DNA from: Treponema sp.
GTDB taxonomy: Bacteria; Spirochaetota; Spirochaetia; Treponematales; Treponemataceae
DNA: 5,312 nt
NCBI GenBank assembly: GCA_014804085.1
Contig: JAAVAM010000056.1
Span: 36,390 to 41,701, forward strand
Reading direction: 5' to 3'
Under the pieces are notes generated by a model. The model was not told the origin of the DNA. It saw nothing but the letters and a program-made list of their open reading frames with translations, and ran no database searches. Made by a program: the position numbers and the translations under genes. How positions within the stretch are numbered: the first letter of the stretch is position 1; every line of letters starts with the position of its first letter. Shown here piece by piece: positions 909 through 5,312 of this stretch.

Positions 909-1736
909 TTAATACGGATTTCTGTGCAACCAAGAAATGACTTTGCCGTGAATACGTAGCATATTTTCTGCCTGTTCATAACTGATGATTTCGGGATTCG
1001 GATAGCGTTTTGCGTTTTCGGAACTGATGACGATTTTGCGCTCAAGCGGGCGGTACTCAAGATGTTTCACGCGGACATCTGCACCAATGCTGATGACATA
1101 TACGCCGTCGCCGTCAATCTGCGTTCGATCGAAAACAGCGAAGTCGCCGTTGAACAGATTCATATCCGTCATGCTGTCGCCGACAACGCGCACGATGCCG
1201 CAGTTCTTCGGATTCGCCCCGCCGAGCATTTCCAAGACGGTTGGAATGTATTTGTCAACTTCCTGTAATTGCGTTTCGGGCTGACCTCGCCCTGCGGCTG
1301 CCGTTTGCGTGAAAACAGGAAGCAGAACCAAAGCATCAAAGTCCGTTTCTTTTGCATCAAGGGGTATCATAGTGCCGTGTTTGAGCCTGAACACATCGAA
1401 AGTTTTTGCATATTTAGGTGCAGGCATGTTTTCCATCGGCGTGTCCGCCGGGTAATCTTTAATTTGTTCAAAACGTTGTTTTGTTATTTCCTCTTTTGAC
1501 ACCCCTGTTCGCTCTGAAATTTTTTCAAGAATTTGTGCTGAACTGCCAGCCATCAATTCTGAATATGGATATCCCATCTGCGCAAGTTTGGTAAGTATTT
1601 TTATAGGTGGCTTCGCTTTTCCGATTTCATAACTCGCCCAAGTTGTCTGTGGTATTCCCAATTCTTTTGCCAATTTTGTTTGGCTTAAGCCTAGCGATTT
1701 TCTCGTTTCTAGCAAATAATTCGTTAAATTTTGCAA
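909..1736 (-). CDS. LexA/CI-type phage repressor (HTH plus S24 self-cleaving peptidase)
   Basis: This 275-residue repressor should maintain lysogeny by binding operators in the divergent control region. Residues 4-61 form an HTH_XRE domain (LETRKSLGLSQTKLAKELGIPQTTWASYEIGK, with recognition helix around 29-38). Residues 62-137 are a linker. The C-terminal half is an S24/LexA-like domain: Ala148-Gly149 in TAAAGRG is the predicted self-cleavage bond, Ser188 in VVGDSM the nucleophile and Lys224 in VRVKHLEY the general base. All catalytic elements are present, so RecA-stimulated (SOS) induction is plausible. The start is TTG (1736-1734) with Shine-Dalgarno TGAGGT 5 bases upstream. The nearby ATG at 1749 runs straight into a stop (ATG AGG TAA), so TTG is the best choice. 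The length is normal to slightly long for CI-like repressors. It heads an operon with the membrane protein and is probably autoregulated, since operators lie between it and the early promoter. Mu's own c repressor lacks this protease fold. Confidence 0.93.
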   Translation of the reverse strand: MQNLTNYLLETRKSLGLSQTKLAKELGIPQTTWASYEIGKAKPPIKILTKLAQMGYPYSELMAGSSAQILEKISERTGVSKEEITKQRFEQIKDYPADTPMENMPAPKYAKTFDVFRLKHGTMIPLDAKETDFDALVLLPVFTQTAAAGRGQPETQLQEVDKYIPTVLEMLGGANPKNCGIVRVVGDSMTDMNLFNGDFAVFDRTQIDGDGVYVISIGADVRVKHLEYRPLERKIVISSENAKRYPNPEIISYEQAENMLRIHGKVISWLHRNPY

Positions 1737-3015: not shown

Positions 3016-3624
3016 ATGGCAACCAACAAAGATTATTTGGAAGATGCGCAGGGACGGCTTATACCTATGTCAGCCGTCAAACCCATTGACAAAAAGCGAC
3101 ACGATGCTGTCCTTTCGATTATGAAAGACACTTTCGCGGAACGCGACCGCTTGATTGAATTCAAGCGGAACATTTGGATGCGGGTGCAGGAGTTCCTTGC
3201 GGAATCCGCCAAAGACAGCGGAGCGCGCAAATTCGGCGGCGCAAAGGGAAATGTCACGCTTACGAGTTTTGACGGCAAATACAAAGTCATTGTGGCTGTG
3301 AACGACACTATCCAGTTCAACGAAAAATTGCAAGTTGCGAAACAACTTATCGACAAATGCATTGCCGACTGGAGCGAGGGCGCGAACAAAAACCTCCGCG
3401 CGATTGTGGATGACGCTTTCAACGTGGGCAAGAGCGGTCTTGTCAGCACAAGCCGAGTATTGGGCTTGCGCCGTCTCCACATCACGGACGCAACATGGAA
3501 AAAGGCTATGGAAGCAATATCAGAATCAATGCAGGTTGCCAGTTCAAAAACCTACATGCGCTTTTACGAGCGTTTGCAGGACGGCAGTTTCAAACAAATT
3601 CCGCTTGGCATAGCGGTACTGTAA
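3016..3624 (+). CDS. DUF3164 family protein of Mu-like phages
   Basis: This 202-residue protein matches my memory of the DUF3164 family over its whole length. The N-terminal DAQGRLIPMSAVKPID (10-25) is followed by a long charged helical region (26-70), then a beta segment (GNVTLTSFDGKYKVIVAVND, 78-97). A helical region follows (QLIDKCIADWSEGANKNLRAIVDDAF), and the signature end is TYMRFYERLQDGSFKQIPL (179-197). The family is common in the early region of transposable phages; its biochemical role is not established as far as I know. The start ATG has AAGGAG (3004-3009) at 6 bases. It lies 11 bp after the previous stop and 12 bp before the next start. It is the best single marker, together with the transposase, that this is a Mu-type phage rather than a lambda-type one. 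Nothing suggests truncation. Confidence 0.88.
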   Translation: MATNKDYLEDAQGRLIPMSAVKPIDKKRHDAVLSIMKDTFAERDRLIEFKRNIWMRVQEFLAESAKDSGARKFGGAKGNVTLTSFDGKYKVIVAVNDTIQFNEKLQVAKQLIDKCIADWSEGANKNLRAIVDDAFNVGKSGLVSTSRVLGLRRLHITDATWKKAMEAISESMQVASSKTYMRFYERLQDGSFKQIPLGIAVL

Positions 3625-3636
3625 GGAGGCTCGCGT

Positions 3637-3762
3637 ATGATGGGCTTTATTTATCGGGTGGGAATCAGAATAAAGGACTTCGGCGAGCGCATTCACAACA
3701 GCGGCATTCAGCGCATGGGGATAGCGATTAAGAATGTCGCGCTCAAAATGAACGCGAGGTGA
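3637..3762 (+). CDS. 41-residue basic amphipathic protein
   Basis: A short gene between DUF3164 and the winged-helix gene starts at ATG 3637 (a second ATG follows at 3640) and stops at TGA 3760-3762. AAGGAGG (3623-3629) lies 7 bases upstream and overlaps the DUF3164 stop. The product, beginning MMGFIYRVGIRIKDFGERI and ending ALKMNAR, is strongly basic and alternates hydrophobic and charged residues, so it may form an amphipathic helix with membrane or nucleic-acid affinity. The good ribosome site, the fit into the 134-bp gap and the stop embedded in the next gene's ribosome site support it being real. I recall similar tiny proteins in Mu-like phages of anaerobes, but cannot name a family or function. 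Confidence 0.72.
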   Translation: MMGFIYRVGIRIKDFGERIHNSGIQRMGIAIKNVALKMNAR

Positions 3763-3763
3763 A
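3749..3763 (+). repeat. 15-bp repeat carrying a ribosome binding site, copy 1
   Basis: TGAACGCGAGGTGAA is identical to 4098-4112. It contains the Shine-Dalgarno GAGGTGA (3756-3762) that serves the ATG at 3768 with 5-base spacing. This favours ATG 3768 over GTG 3759, which has no upstream ribosome site. Here the repeat also encodes the end of the 41-residue protein (MNAR, stop). Confidence 0.7.
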
Positions 3764-3767
3764 GCGT

Positions 3768-4067
3768 ATGAACGAGAAACTTTCAAGCCAAGAACGGATT
3801 TTGGCAGAGGCGAAGGCTTTGAGCGAAAACCATCAAGACGGAATGAGCAACAAGAAACTTGCCTCGTTGCTCGGAACTTCGGAAACAAATATTTGCAGGG
3901 ATATGTCAATCTTTGAAAAATTCGGATTTGTTTCCCGAAACGGCAAAGGGCGATGGCGGCTCTCCGAGAAGTTCGGCGGAATTGCTGGGCAGATAATGAA
4001 AAGTTATCAGAAAGCCCGCTTGACGCTGAGCGAAGAAGAAGCGCGTTACGCTTCTGTGATGCAATAA
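3768..4067 (+). CDS. Winged-helix DNA-binding protein, IclR-N-terminal-like
   Basis: This 99-residue protein consists mostly of one winged-helix domain at residues 6-66. Helix 1 is SQERILAEAKALSE and helix 2 SNKKLASLLG. The recognition helix is SETNICRDMSIFEKFGFV, and the wing is SRNGKGRWRLS. The order (short helix, HTH, then a G-x-W/R wing) resembles the N-terminal domain of IclR-type and MarR-like regulators without a ligand domain. The tail (67-99) is helical and charged. I chose ATG 3768 because GAGGTGA precedes it by 5 bases; GTG 3759 would add only MKR. In transposable phages small HTH proteins in this zone are found beside the transposase and are thought to modulate early transcription; that role is inferred. 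The stop is followed within 7 bp by the 26-bp palindrome 4074-4099. Confidence 0.8.
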   Translation: MNEKLSSQERILAEAKALSENHQDGMSNKKLASLLGTSETNICRDMSIFEKFGFVSRNGKGRWRLSEKFGGIAGQIMKSYQKARLTLSEEEARYASVMQ

Positions 4068-4073
4068 AAAAAG

Positions 4074-4099
4074 CAAATTCCCCCACGTGGGGGAATTTG
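4074..4099. repeat. Perfect 26-bp palindrome, intergenic copy
   Basis: The left half is CAAATTCCCCCAC (4074-4086); the right half (4087-4099) is its exact reverse complement, with core CCACGTGG. The inner 24 bp (4075-4098) plus the following G are identical to the copy inside the next gene at 4442-4466. As RNA it folds into a 10-11 bp GC-cored stem with an ACGT loop. On the minus strand it is followed by GCTTTTTTT, so leftward it is a credible intrinsic terminator. Rightward it is followed by GAACGCG and lies 7 bp before the Shine-Dalgarno of the DUF3102-like gene, so it could modulate that gene's translation. No direct-repeat target duplication is obvious around it. Confidence 0.85.
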
Positions 4100-4112
4100 A
4101 ACGCGAGGTGAA
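4098..4112 (+). repeat. 15-bp repeat carrying a ribosome binding site, copy 2
   Basis: This is identical to 3749-3763 and begins at the right edge of the 26-bp palindrome. It provides GAGGTGA (4105-4111) for ATG 4116. The identity extends 5' of the ribosome site (TGAACGC), more than translation alone requires, which suggests duplication of a gene-start cassette. Confidence 0.65.
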
Positions 4113-4115
4113 ATT

Positions 4116-4964
4116 ATGGGTAGAAAACCATTGGAAAAAACAAACGAAGATGCGCAAGTGATGGATTTGGTGGCGAGTTCGGCGGCTTCGCGTGAAGTGG
4201 CAAAGCAAGAAATCAATGCCAAATTTCTTGCGCCTGGCGAAACCTACAATCTCCATGTCTGTTTGGAAAAGGCACGTATGTACCAAGACCAAATGGCGAG
4301 CGGAATGCTCGGTCTTGGTGCGCAGTTGCTGTTAATCAAAGAAAACGAACAGCACGGAAATTTTATGGCGGCAATTGAAGAACTGGGCTTGGCGCAGACA
4401 TCCGCAAATTATGCGATGGCAGCGGCTCGCAAGTTCGGCGTAAATTCCCCCACGTGGGGGAATTTGGAGTATTCCAAATTAAAAGCCCTTACCGTTCTTG
4501 AGGATGACGACATTCGCAAACTGAAAGACGGTGATGAAGTGGATGGTATTGGAGCGATTGACGACATCGCGAAAATGTCAGTCCGCGAACTCCGCGCTGC
4601 ACTCCGTAAGGAAAAACAAGAACATCAAGATGAACGCATGGCTCTTGAAGAGGTCGTGCGCAAAAAAGAAAGCACAATCTCGGCTCTTGAAATGCAAGCG
4701 GCGGGCATACAGCCGCCGACCAAAGAACAGGTTGCGGAGCGGTATCTTGACGAATTGCGCAAAAGTCTTGTCGGTGCGCTTTCAGTTGCAAAAGACAACC
4801 TCACCAGTGCGCGAATCCTCATCATGAAGGCACAAGAAATTGACGGAGTGACAGTTGAGCAACTCGACAAATGGGTTGAAGACGCAGACTGGATATCCGC
4901 CACTCTTGATGACACCTATCAGGAAGTTGTGCAAGGCATGGAAAATATCCATCCCGCGAAATAG
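4116..4964 (+). CDS. DUF3102-like early phage protein with coiled coil
   Basis: This is a 282-residue protein. Residues 1-35 are a flexible charged leader. Residues 40-108 (Y.LHVCLEKARMYQDQMASGMLGLGAQLLLIKENEQHGNFMAAIEELGLAQTSANYAMAAARKFG, read in short segments) match the DUF3102 pattern. That pattern is a helix with G..L..IKE, then an aromatic-rich segment and an HTH-like 'gls..sA...M..ArkF'. Residues 118-160 carry the conserved-looking EYSKLKALTVLED and MSVRELRAAL. Residues 157-195 are a predicted coiled coil (RKEKQEHQDERMALEEVVRKKE). The C-terminal 200-282 is helical. The family is widespread in phages and plasmids, probably DNA-associated, with no established activity that I can cite. 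Residues 110-117 (NSPTWGNL) are encoded by the repeated 24-bp palindrome and sit in the linker between two domains. The start ATG has GAGGTGA at 4 bases, and the stop is 11 bp before the transposase. Confidence 0.82.
   Translation: MGRKPLEKTNEDAQVMDLVASSAASREVAKQEINAKFLAPGETYNLHVCLEKARMYQDQMASGMLGLGAQLLLIKENEQHGNFMAAIEELGLAQTSANYAMAAARKFGVNSPTWGNLEYSKLKALTVLEDDDIRKLKDGDEVDGIGAIDDIAKMSVRELRAALRKEKQEHQDERMALEEVVRKKESTISALEMQAAGIQPPTKEQVAERYLDELRKSLVGALSVAKDNLTSARILIMKAQEIDGVTVEQLDKWVEDADWISATLDDTYQEVVQGMENIHPAK
4442..4465. repeat. Perfect 24-bp palindrome, copy inside the DUF3102-like gene
   Basis: The left half is AAATTCCCCCAC (4442-4453); the right half (4454-4465) is its reverse complement. 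It is identical to 4075-4098 and lies exactly 367 bp downstream of it. The next base, G, is also shared; other flanks differ. Its length is 8 codons, so it leaves the reading frame intact and contributes NSPTWGNL (residues 110-117). The other frames would read KFPHVGEF and IPPRGGI; none contains a stop. In the transcript it would form the same strong hairpin within coding sequence. Confidence 0.88.
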
Positions 4965-4975: not shown

Positions 4976-5312
4976 GTGTACGAGGATTTTGCTTTGCAAA
5001 TGAAAGCGGCGCGTTCGGCAAAGGAGCGGGGCGCGGTCATAGCCGAAATGTGCCGTGTATTCGGATTCGGCAAAGACAGCGCATATCGCGCTCTGAAAGA
5101 AAACGGTTGGGAGAGCAACCGCAAAAAACGGAGCGATGCGGGAACGTCAAGTATCAGCAATGAGAATTTGAGTACCGTTGCCGCGCTCTTGCAGAACAGC
5201 CTCCGCAAAAACGGAAAGAAAACTATGAGTGTTGAAAACGCACGAAGCATAATGCTTCAGAATGGCTTTGACATTCCTGTGGGAAACCGTCAGTTGAGCG
5301 GGCTTCTCAAAA
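4976..5312 (+). CDS. Mu-type phage transposase, N-terminal part (3' partial)
   Basis: The reading frame stays open from GTG 4976 to the right edge, giving 112 codons. Residues 12-50 (AARSAKERGAVIAEMCRVFGFGKDSAYRALKENGW) form a helix-turn-helix like the DNA-binding N-terminus of Mu-like transposases. After a basic linker (SNRKKRSDAG), residues 60-112 (ENLSTVAALLQNSLRKNGKKTMSVENARSIMLQNGFDIPVGNRQLSGLLK) match the second HTH-like segment. In this family that segment precedes the DDE catalytic core (typically followed by a 'HPN..WQ.D' motif). The catalytic domain is outside the window, so activity cannot be judged. The family joins phage ends to target DNA by replicative transposition. The gene is coupled to the DUF3102-like gene (11 bp apart) and in Mu-like phages is usually followed by the B-type ATPase. 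The full length should be about 600-700 residues if intact. The call rests on motif pattern plus context. Confidence 0.75.
   Translation, partial: MYEDFALQMKAARSAKERGAVIAEMCRVFGFGKDSAYRALKENGWESNRKKRSDAGTSSISNENLSTVAALLQNSLRKNGKKTMSVENARSIMLQNGFDIPVGNRQLSGLLK

Follow-up and report, generated by a model that had tools for sequence, protein, structure and literature searches.

A 24-bp palindrome within a DUF3102-like gene of a Mu-like Treponema prophage as the probable target of the protein encoded around it

The DNA analysed here, called the window, is a stretch of 5,312 nucleotides from a Treponema assembly (C17:36390-41701, where C17 coordinates are contig coordinates) and is the early part of a Mu-like prophage. 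It carries a DUF3102-like gene encoding 282 amino acids (4116..4964, plus strand) and two identical copies of a palindrome, AAATTCCCCCACGTGGGGGAATTT, one ahead of the gene and one within it. Comparison of the gene with its relatives makes it very likely that the palindrome is the binding site of the protein of its own gene. We consider it probable that this protein binds there as a symmetric dimer, and holds down its own gene and the genes behind it. With only slightly less assurance, genes of the DUF3102 kind can be viewed as self-addressed: each would encode a ParB-type protein together with a private 24-bp target, located in the linker behind the recognition helix. Protein and target would be exchanged between phages as one cassette, and dozens of insulated specificities would coexist in one genome.

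The exact 24-bp palindrome occurs at 4075..4098 (site 1) and at 4442..4465 (site 2), 367 bp apart, neither site being assigned a strand. A scan of the whole window, allowing up to three mismatches, found no other match. Site 1 is intergenic and lies 17 bp 5' of the ATG (4116) of the DUF3102-like gene. Site 2, 326 bp into this gene, starts with the third base of codon V109, extends into codon L117 and is read as the linker peptide NSPTWGNL. Two matches to the palindrome were found in none of 200 shuffles of the window, and base composition predicts 0.0003 perfect 24-bp palindromes in it. The following G is the only letter that the flanks of the two copies have in common. The original prediction, made from the letters of this stretch, had noticed the two exact copies, their unrelated flanks and their departure from chance, and all of this holds. 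A third, imperfect copy (three mismatches) is located 14 kb off on the same contig (C17:26471-26494), flanked on one side by a minus-strand frame that does not look phage-derived and on the other by the first phage-like frames, also on the minus strand; the left end of the prophage may be close by.

Palindromes are found at the same codons, with other letters, across the family. Scans with the pattern AAATTCCC-NNNCGNNN-GGGAATTT returned 46 genome stretches and 28 viral ones, 23 and 15 of which, respectively, lie inside DUF3102-like frames. The earlier impression that the peptides read from the palindrome recur in bacterial proteins was therefore correct, but these proteins are not unrelated in many cases, being relatives of the window protein. 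Since this set had been picked by its palindrome, genes were gathered anew by protein or profile (7 of 196, 13 of 197 and 14 of 398 genomes), giving 89 frames, of which 76 are distinct and 74 are readable at the register. In 59 of these 74 genes, the codons aligned to NSPTWGNL form at least nine of the 12 pairs of a palindrome, whose letters differ by gene (for instance AAATTCGTCAGCGCTGACGAATTT, AAATCCGTCACCGGTGACGGATTT and AAATCGGAAAACGTTTTCCGATTT). The mean number of pairs is 9.42 of 12 versus 4.92 in synonymous-codon shuffles that follow each gene's own usage. Compared with these shuffles, the palindrome reaches P<0.01 in 60 of the 74 genes, and in 53 of 67 when the seven genes already known to carry the pattern are removed. 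These data indicate that the site in the own gene is kept beyond coding need.

The palindrome is also present at the register in three plasmid genes (from three of four records). Among eight genes of cultured phages, taken from 22 matched records, five (B3, Ps59, PhiKM, KP12 and Mae-JY22) carry five different perfect palindromes, and those of PM105, Ps60 and Bise have no such palindrome at the register. The gene of a Latilactobacillus phage has no clear site. Three genes (L205, L214 and L218) lack the linker palindrome but have a strong one (11-12 of 12 pairs) at the frame start or ahead of it, as though the site had left the coding sequence. Furthermore, a Treponema relative (L105) has an odd 23-base palindrome, AAATTCGACAAATTGTCGAATTT, one base off register, and is scored as lacking the site by the fixed-register test.

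The letters of the site follow the predicted recognition helix of the protein (residues 94-107, QTSANYAMAAARKF; 4395..4436, plus strand; borders from an AlphaFold2 model). In 59 genes, protein columns outside the site were tested against site differences, overall relatedness being allowed for; columns are numbered L- or R+ in residues counted from the site. The best-tracking columns were, in order, L-20, L-24, R+31, R+30, L-21 and L-25, four of which belong to the recognition helix (Y99, T95 and Q94 of the window protein are L-20, L-24 and L-25). In 2000 permutations of sites among proteins, in which the tree was not modelled, the largest value was 0.243 versus an observed maximum of 0.415. 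These counts, like the following ones, take in only genes with a good palindrome; for plasmid and cultured-phage proteins, the helix residues were assigned by eye. When L-20 is Asn, site base 9 is A in 40 of 40 half-sites, and when it is Arg, the base is C in 48 of 48. Asn-adenine and Arg-guanine are classic pairs, and the L-20 pairing would match the latter provided that Arg contacts the opposite strand. At L-25, base 5 is T with Gln (72/72 half-sites), C with Glu (12/12) and G with Arg (8/12). When aligned by us on the motif G-x-S-x-(4)-N, L-25 corresponds to ParB residue 173 and L-20 to ParB residue 178. According to the accessible text of PMC7383237, Arg at residue 173 reads guanine and Gln reads adenine, and residue 178 is a conserved DNA contact.

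Prediction of the letters was evaluated on 63 further genes, gathered by profile from another class; one of them (L291) is apparently the gene of locus L037, which the pattern scan had already returned. At least 10 of the 12 pairs were formed in 53 of these held-out genes. The L-20 rule gave the right base 9 in 103 of 106 half-sites (65 for the commonest base), and in 15 of 16 (versus seven) for genes whose identity to every training gene is below 70%. The L-25 rule was right in 102 of 104, no real gain over the 100 of the commonest base. Over all 112 site-bearing genes, L-20 is Arg with C in 55 of 56 cases, Asn with A in 26 of 26 and Lys mostly with A (18/21). With Arg or Lys at L-24, base 7 is G in 53 of 55 cases; with other residues it is C, G or T. 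Moreover, on a tree built without the helix, five of nine Asn/Arg switches fall on the same branch as a change of base 9 (0.57 expected), and the other four do not. The protein thus seems to determine the letters of its site at one helix position, but not by a simple rule at L-24.

Relatives of the prophage and of phage B3 provide natural experiments. Both site positions are kept in two Treponema prophages, 369 bp apart in G038 and 367 bp apart in G221. In G221, the protein has Arg at L-24 (Thr in the window protein) and both sites read AAATTCGCCAACGTTGGCGAATTT, so that the intergenic and the coding copy share the same change. The two sites of G038 agree in the outer eight bases and differ inside, and a third relative (G133) has the in-gene copy only, within 35 kb. 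Phages B3 and Ps59 share at least 90% identity in each 60-bp bin between a point 2040 bp 5' of the gene and its base 240, and again from base 480 as far as the comparison extends. Over bases 240-480, the block that holds helix and site, identity is 63-85%. Over 4 kb, their divergence is mainly this one 240-bp block, and they diverge again further upstream towards the repressor.

Two points weigh against the proposed self-binding. A simple two-way rule for L-24 failed on the held-out genes (63/106 half-sites right versus 81 for the commonest base), and gene conversion between the two copies of G221 would also keep them alike.

The window protein matches the PHROG 1748 profile over residues 1-271 (E 2e-46, 159.5 bits). 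Its score for Pfam DUF3102 (PF11300) is 14.7 bits (E 0.037), under the curated cut-off of 24.4 bits, and we therefore name it DUF3102-like. Bacillota relatives pass this cut-off (201.6 bits for L037, for instance) and the B3 ortholog carries the DUF3102 annotation in its record. The AlphaFold2 model of the window protein (mean predicted local distance difference test, pLDDT, 82.6; predicted template modelling score 0.50) has structural matches to chains of Spo0J, Noc, ParB, SopB and KorB. A DNA-binding domain of the ParB/Noc type is predicted, with long helices behind it. The peptide encoded by the site lies in a linker: pLDDT is below 50 at residues 81-88 of the L037 domain model. A sequence search of the PDB gave coiled-coil and weak unrelated matches only and no ParB match, which is not evidence of absence. 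A protein search of the viral contigs found nothing for the window protein or L037, and four loci for L028. On one Alicyclobacillus plasmid, a ParA gene lies some 4 kb from the family gene.

The fold is a prediction; the binding itself, its dimeric form and its effect are inferences. The ParB/Noc-type helix-turn-helix (HTH) protein would bind the palindrome as a symmetric dimer and lower transcription both of its own gene and of those that follow. The simplest reading is a feedback by which the protein acts on transcription of its own gene and affects the genes behind as well; our best guess for the role of binding is that this feedback represses the gene together with the transposase genes that follow. 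Since these transposase genes, assigned by gene order, are downstream, binding may limit transposition. The two prophage sites, one before the ATG and the other 326 bp into the gene, could act jointly, either by a DNA loop (367 bp are about 35 helical turns) or as a road-block to RNA polymerase. About 150 bp of one reading frame take in both site and helix, which can therefore pass on as one cassette; they would be inherited or exchanged together, each copy being self-addressed and insulated from its relatives.

The minimum function would need the in-gene site only, because most chromosomal genes, G660 and B3 have no extra site. A second near-copy within 10 kb was not seen for 35 of 42 chromosomal genes, and the complete B3 genome contains one site. 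When one palindrome type was scanned in six genomes, 20 places were found; of the 16 with a locus, eight lie in DUF3102-like frames or pieces and eight outside, and both places of G660 are inside its two DUF3102 genes. Mae-JY22 has three exact copies in 27 kb, and phage contigs carry further copies of the palindrome of their own element, in the intervals between genes that look late or structural. These added copies, like that of the window prophage, would fit extra operators or a structural role. In several viral contigs (L063-L095, for instance L069, L080 and L086), a second-site palindrome lies 25 bp from a long tape-measure-like frame.

Copies far from the gene in phage contigs, and 14 kb off in the window contig, also suit a self-binding protein whose job is not repression. 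Its palindrome would be a centromere-like or loading site, serving segregation, DNA folding, copy pairing or the marking of element DNA. We give this alternative a real but minority chance. The predicted ParB/Noc fold speaks for it, as does the presence of another near-copy within 10 kb for seven of 42 genes versus 25 of 1060 swapped tests, although two of these seven are tandem genes that count each other and one region was picked by pattern. However, Pfam lists no ParB N-terminal (cytidine triphosphate, CTP, binding) family at E<=1 for eight proteins, which makes ParB-type sliding and spreading unlikely, and the site is single in phage B3 as in most chromosomal copies. An mRNA hairpin, its symmetry kept by compensatory change in the stem, would likewise be expected to give covarying symmetry in a transcribed region, and the odd palindrome of L105 suits it. 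Nevertheless, a hairpin would require neither the same letters in two separate copies (the window, G221 and Mae-JY22) nor letters that track a helix residue, and mismatched pairs have no excess of G.T wobble (13 G.T, 20 A.C and 29 others in 50 distinct sites). The identical copies and these mismatch counts make it very unlikely. Reading of the site by a neighbour, whether the small HTH regulator ahead of the gene or the transposase behind it, is a shade less credible still. Both neighbours are kept in Mu-like relatives and site 1 lies directly behind the HTH gene, but both neighbour regions (HTH gene and transposase start) are at least 93% identical per bin between B3 and Ps59. Since neither neighbour differs, neither explains the change of site between these phages. 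In addition, many site-bearing chromosomal genes have no such neighbours.

The original prediction had favoured a small dispersed palindromic element, comparable to those of Rickettsia, inserted at both places. Two exact copies with unrelated flanks suggested it, and it is effectively ruled out. The host assembly (2.7 Mb, 89.75% complete) holds the two exact copies and the one with three mismatches, all on the prophage contig, and no further copy with up to three mismatches. No empty site was seen in orthologues: each of the 120 aligned homologues (the best 120 of 189 found) has residues at the positions that the palindrome encodes, length differences there being of one or three residues only. 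Moreover, the positions are kept in the related prophages G038 and G221 while the letters change, which is largely what the original prediction had named as speaking for a fixed phage site. Among 97 relatives, the exact 20-bp core was found in the own genome only; with three mismatches allowed, three of 98 genus genomes match, and all three also carry the gene, which is present in seven of 200 genus genomes. The other possibility that had been raised, a protein-binding site selected in two places, gains support from these comparisons, and further than had been supposed, as the binder would be the protein of the gene itself.

Sites inside coding sequences and specificity switches of ParB-type proteins are already known. 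For instance, spo0J of Bacillus subtilis contains a parS, that is, a binding site inside the gene of its binder; this is one of several near-universal parS copies, whereas the DUF3102 site varies by gene with the recognition helix. The auxiliary operators lac O2 and gal OI, situated within lacZ and galE respectively, can also act with a second operator near the promoter. They lie in the target gene of an unlinked regulator, whereas the DUF3102 site lies in a regulator-like gene, in the linker behind the recognition helix. SopB and KorB, involved in plasmid partition and regulation, have their operators outside the gene, unlike the DUF3102 kind. Rickettsia palindromic elements are likewise read through in a reading frame, but the DUF3102 palindrome is neither an insertion nor spread through the host genome. 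The systems for chromosome segregation (ParB-parS) and nucleoid occlusion (Noc-NBS) share with the DUF3102 kind the predicted DNA-binding fold and a palindromic site, mostly centred on CG. The residue matching ParB 173 in the helix varies along with the site, just as it does between ParB and Noc in the accessible text of PMC7383237. Unlike them, the DUF3102 kind has no CTP-binding N-terminal domain listed by Pfam, its site is gene-specific and in its own reading frame, and specificity has diversified many times, not two-fold. In the accessible text of PMC9927464, DUF3102 appears in annotation lists only, and PF11300 had no match by name in open-licence papers. A family-wide, gene-specific site inside the frame of its predicted binder, co-diverging with the helix, was not found in this literature, which is not proof of its absence.

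If correct, this reading would turn an uncharacterised family into DNA-binding proteins with readable targets. As each gene would state its own site, sequences by themselves would allow protein-DNA specificity to be studied, and natural protein-site pairs would be available in their hundreds for testing how specificity diverges and stays insulated. One reading frame would hold both a peptide and the target of that peptide's protein. Relatives occur in several bacterial phyla and their phages (Treponema prophages, Bacillota chromosomes and plasmids, enterobacterial, Pseudomonas and cyanobacterial phages), and protein and target likely change and travel together. Transposase control in Mu-like phages would also gain a handle.

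The gene order of the prophage is repressor, small HTH gene, DUF3164 gene, second small HTH gene, DUF3102-like gene and transposase genes. Domain and profile matches identify the repressor (909..1736, minus strand), which has HTH and S24 peptidase domains. The DUF3164 gene (3016..3624, plus strand; PF11363, 238.7 bits) is a marker of the Mu-like early region. The small HTH gene directly upstream (3759..4067, plus strand; PHROG 1368) encodes a transcriptional regulator, and the same neighbour is found in B3, Ps59, PhiKM and KP12. Behind the DUF3102-like gene, the start of the transposase A gene (4976..5312, plus strand; C17:41365-43086) is cut by the window end, and the next frame (C17:43105-43962, strand not stated) would be transposase B; both are named by position, with the gene order of B3, Ps59 and PhiKM. 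Pseudomonas phage B3 is annotated with the order HTH, DUF3102, transposase A and B; the annotations of Ps59 and PhiKM give the same order, with some of the genes named differently.

Elsewhere, one genome (G250) has AAACTCCCCGATAAACGGGAATTT-like sequences in over a dozen places on many contigs, several of them less than 250 bases from the contig start; these are probably the end of an unrelated repeat. DUF3102 genes can be dispersed, with up to 39 scored matches per genome, and 38 of 82 genomes of the class that supplied the held-out genes have one (for instance G856, G880, G858, G245 and G234). Such genes are often solitary and adjoin unrelated housekeeping genes. They are also often flanked by two small genes of about 75-80 amino acids (L181, L185, L197, L206 and L214), which we take to resemble the DUF1659 and DUF2922 families.
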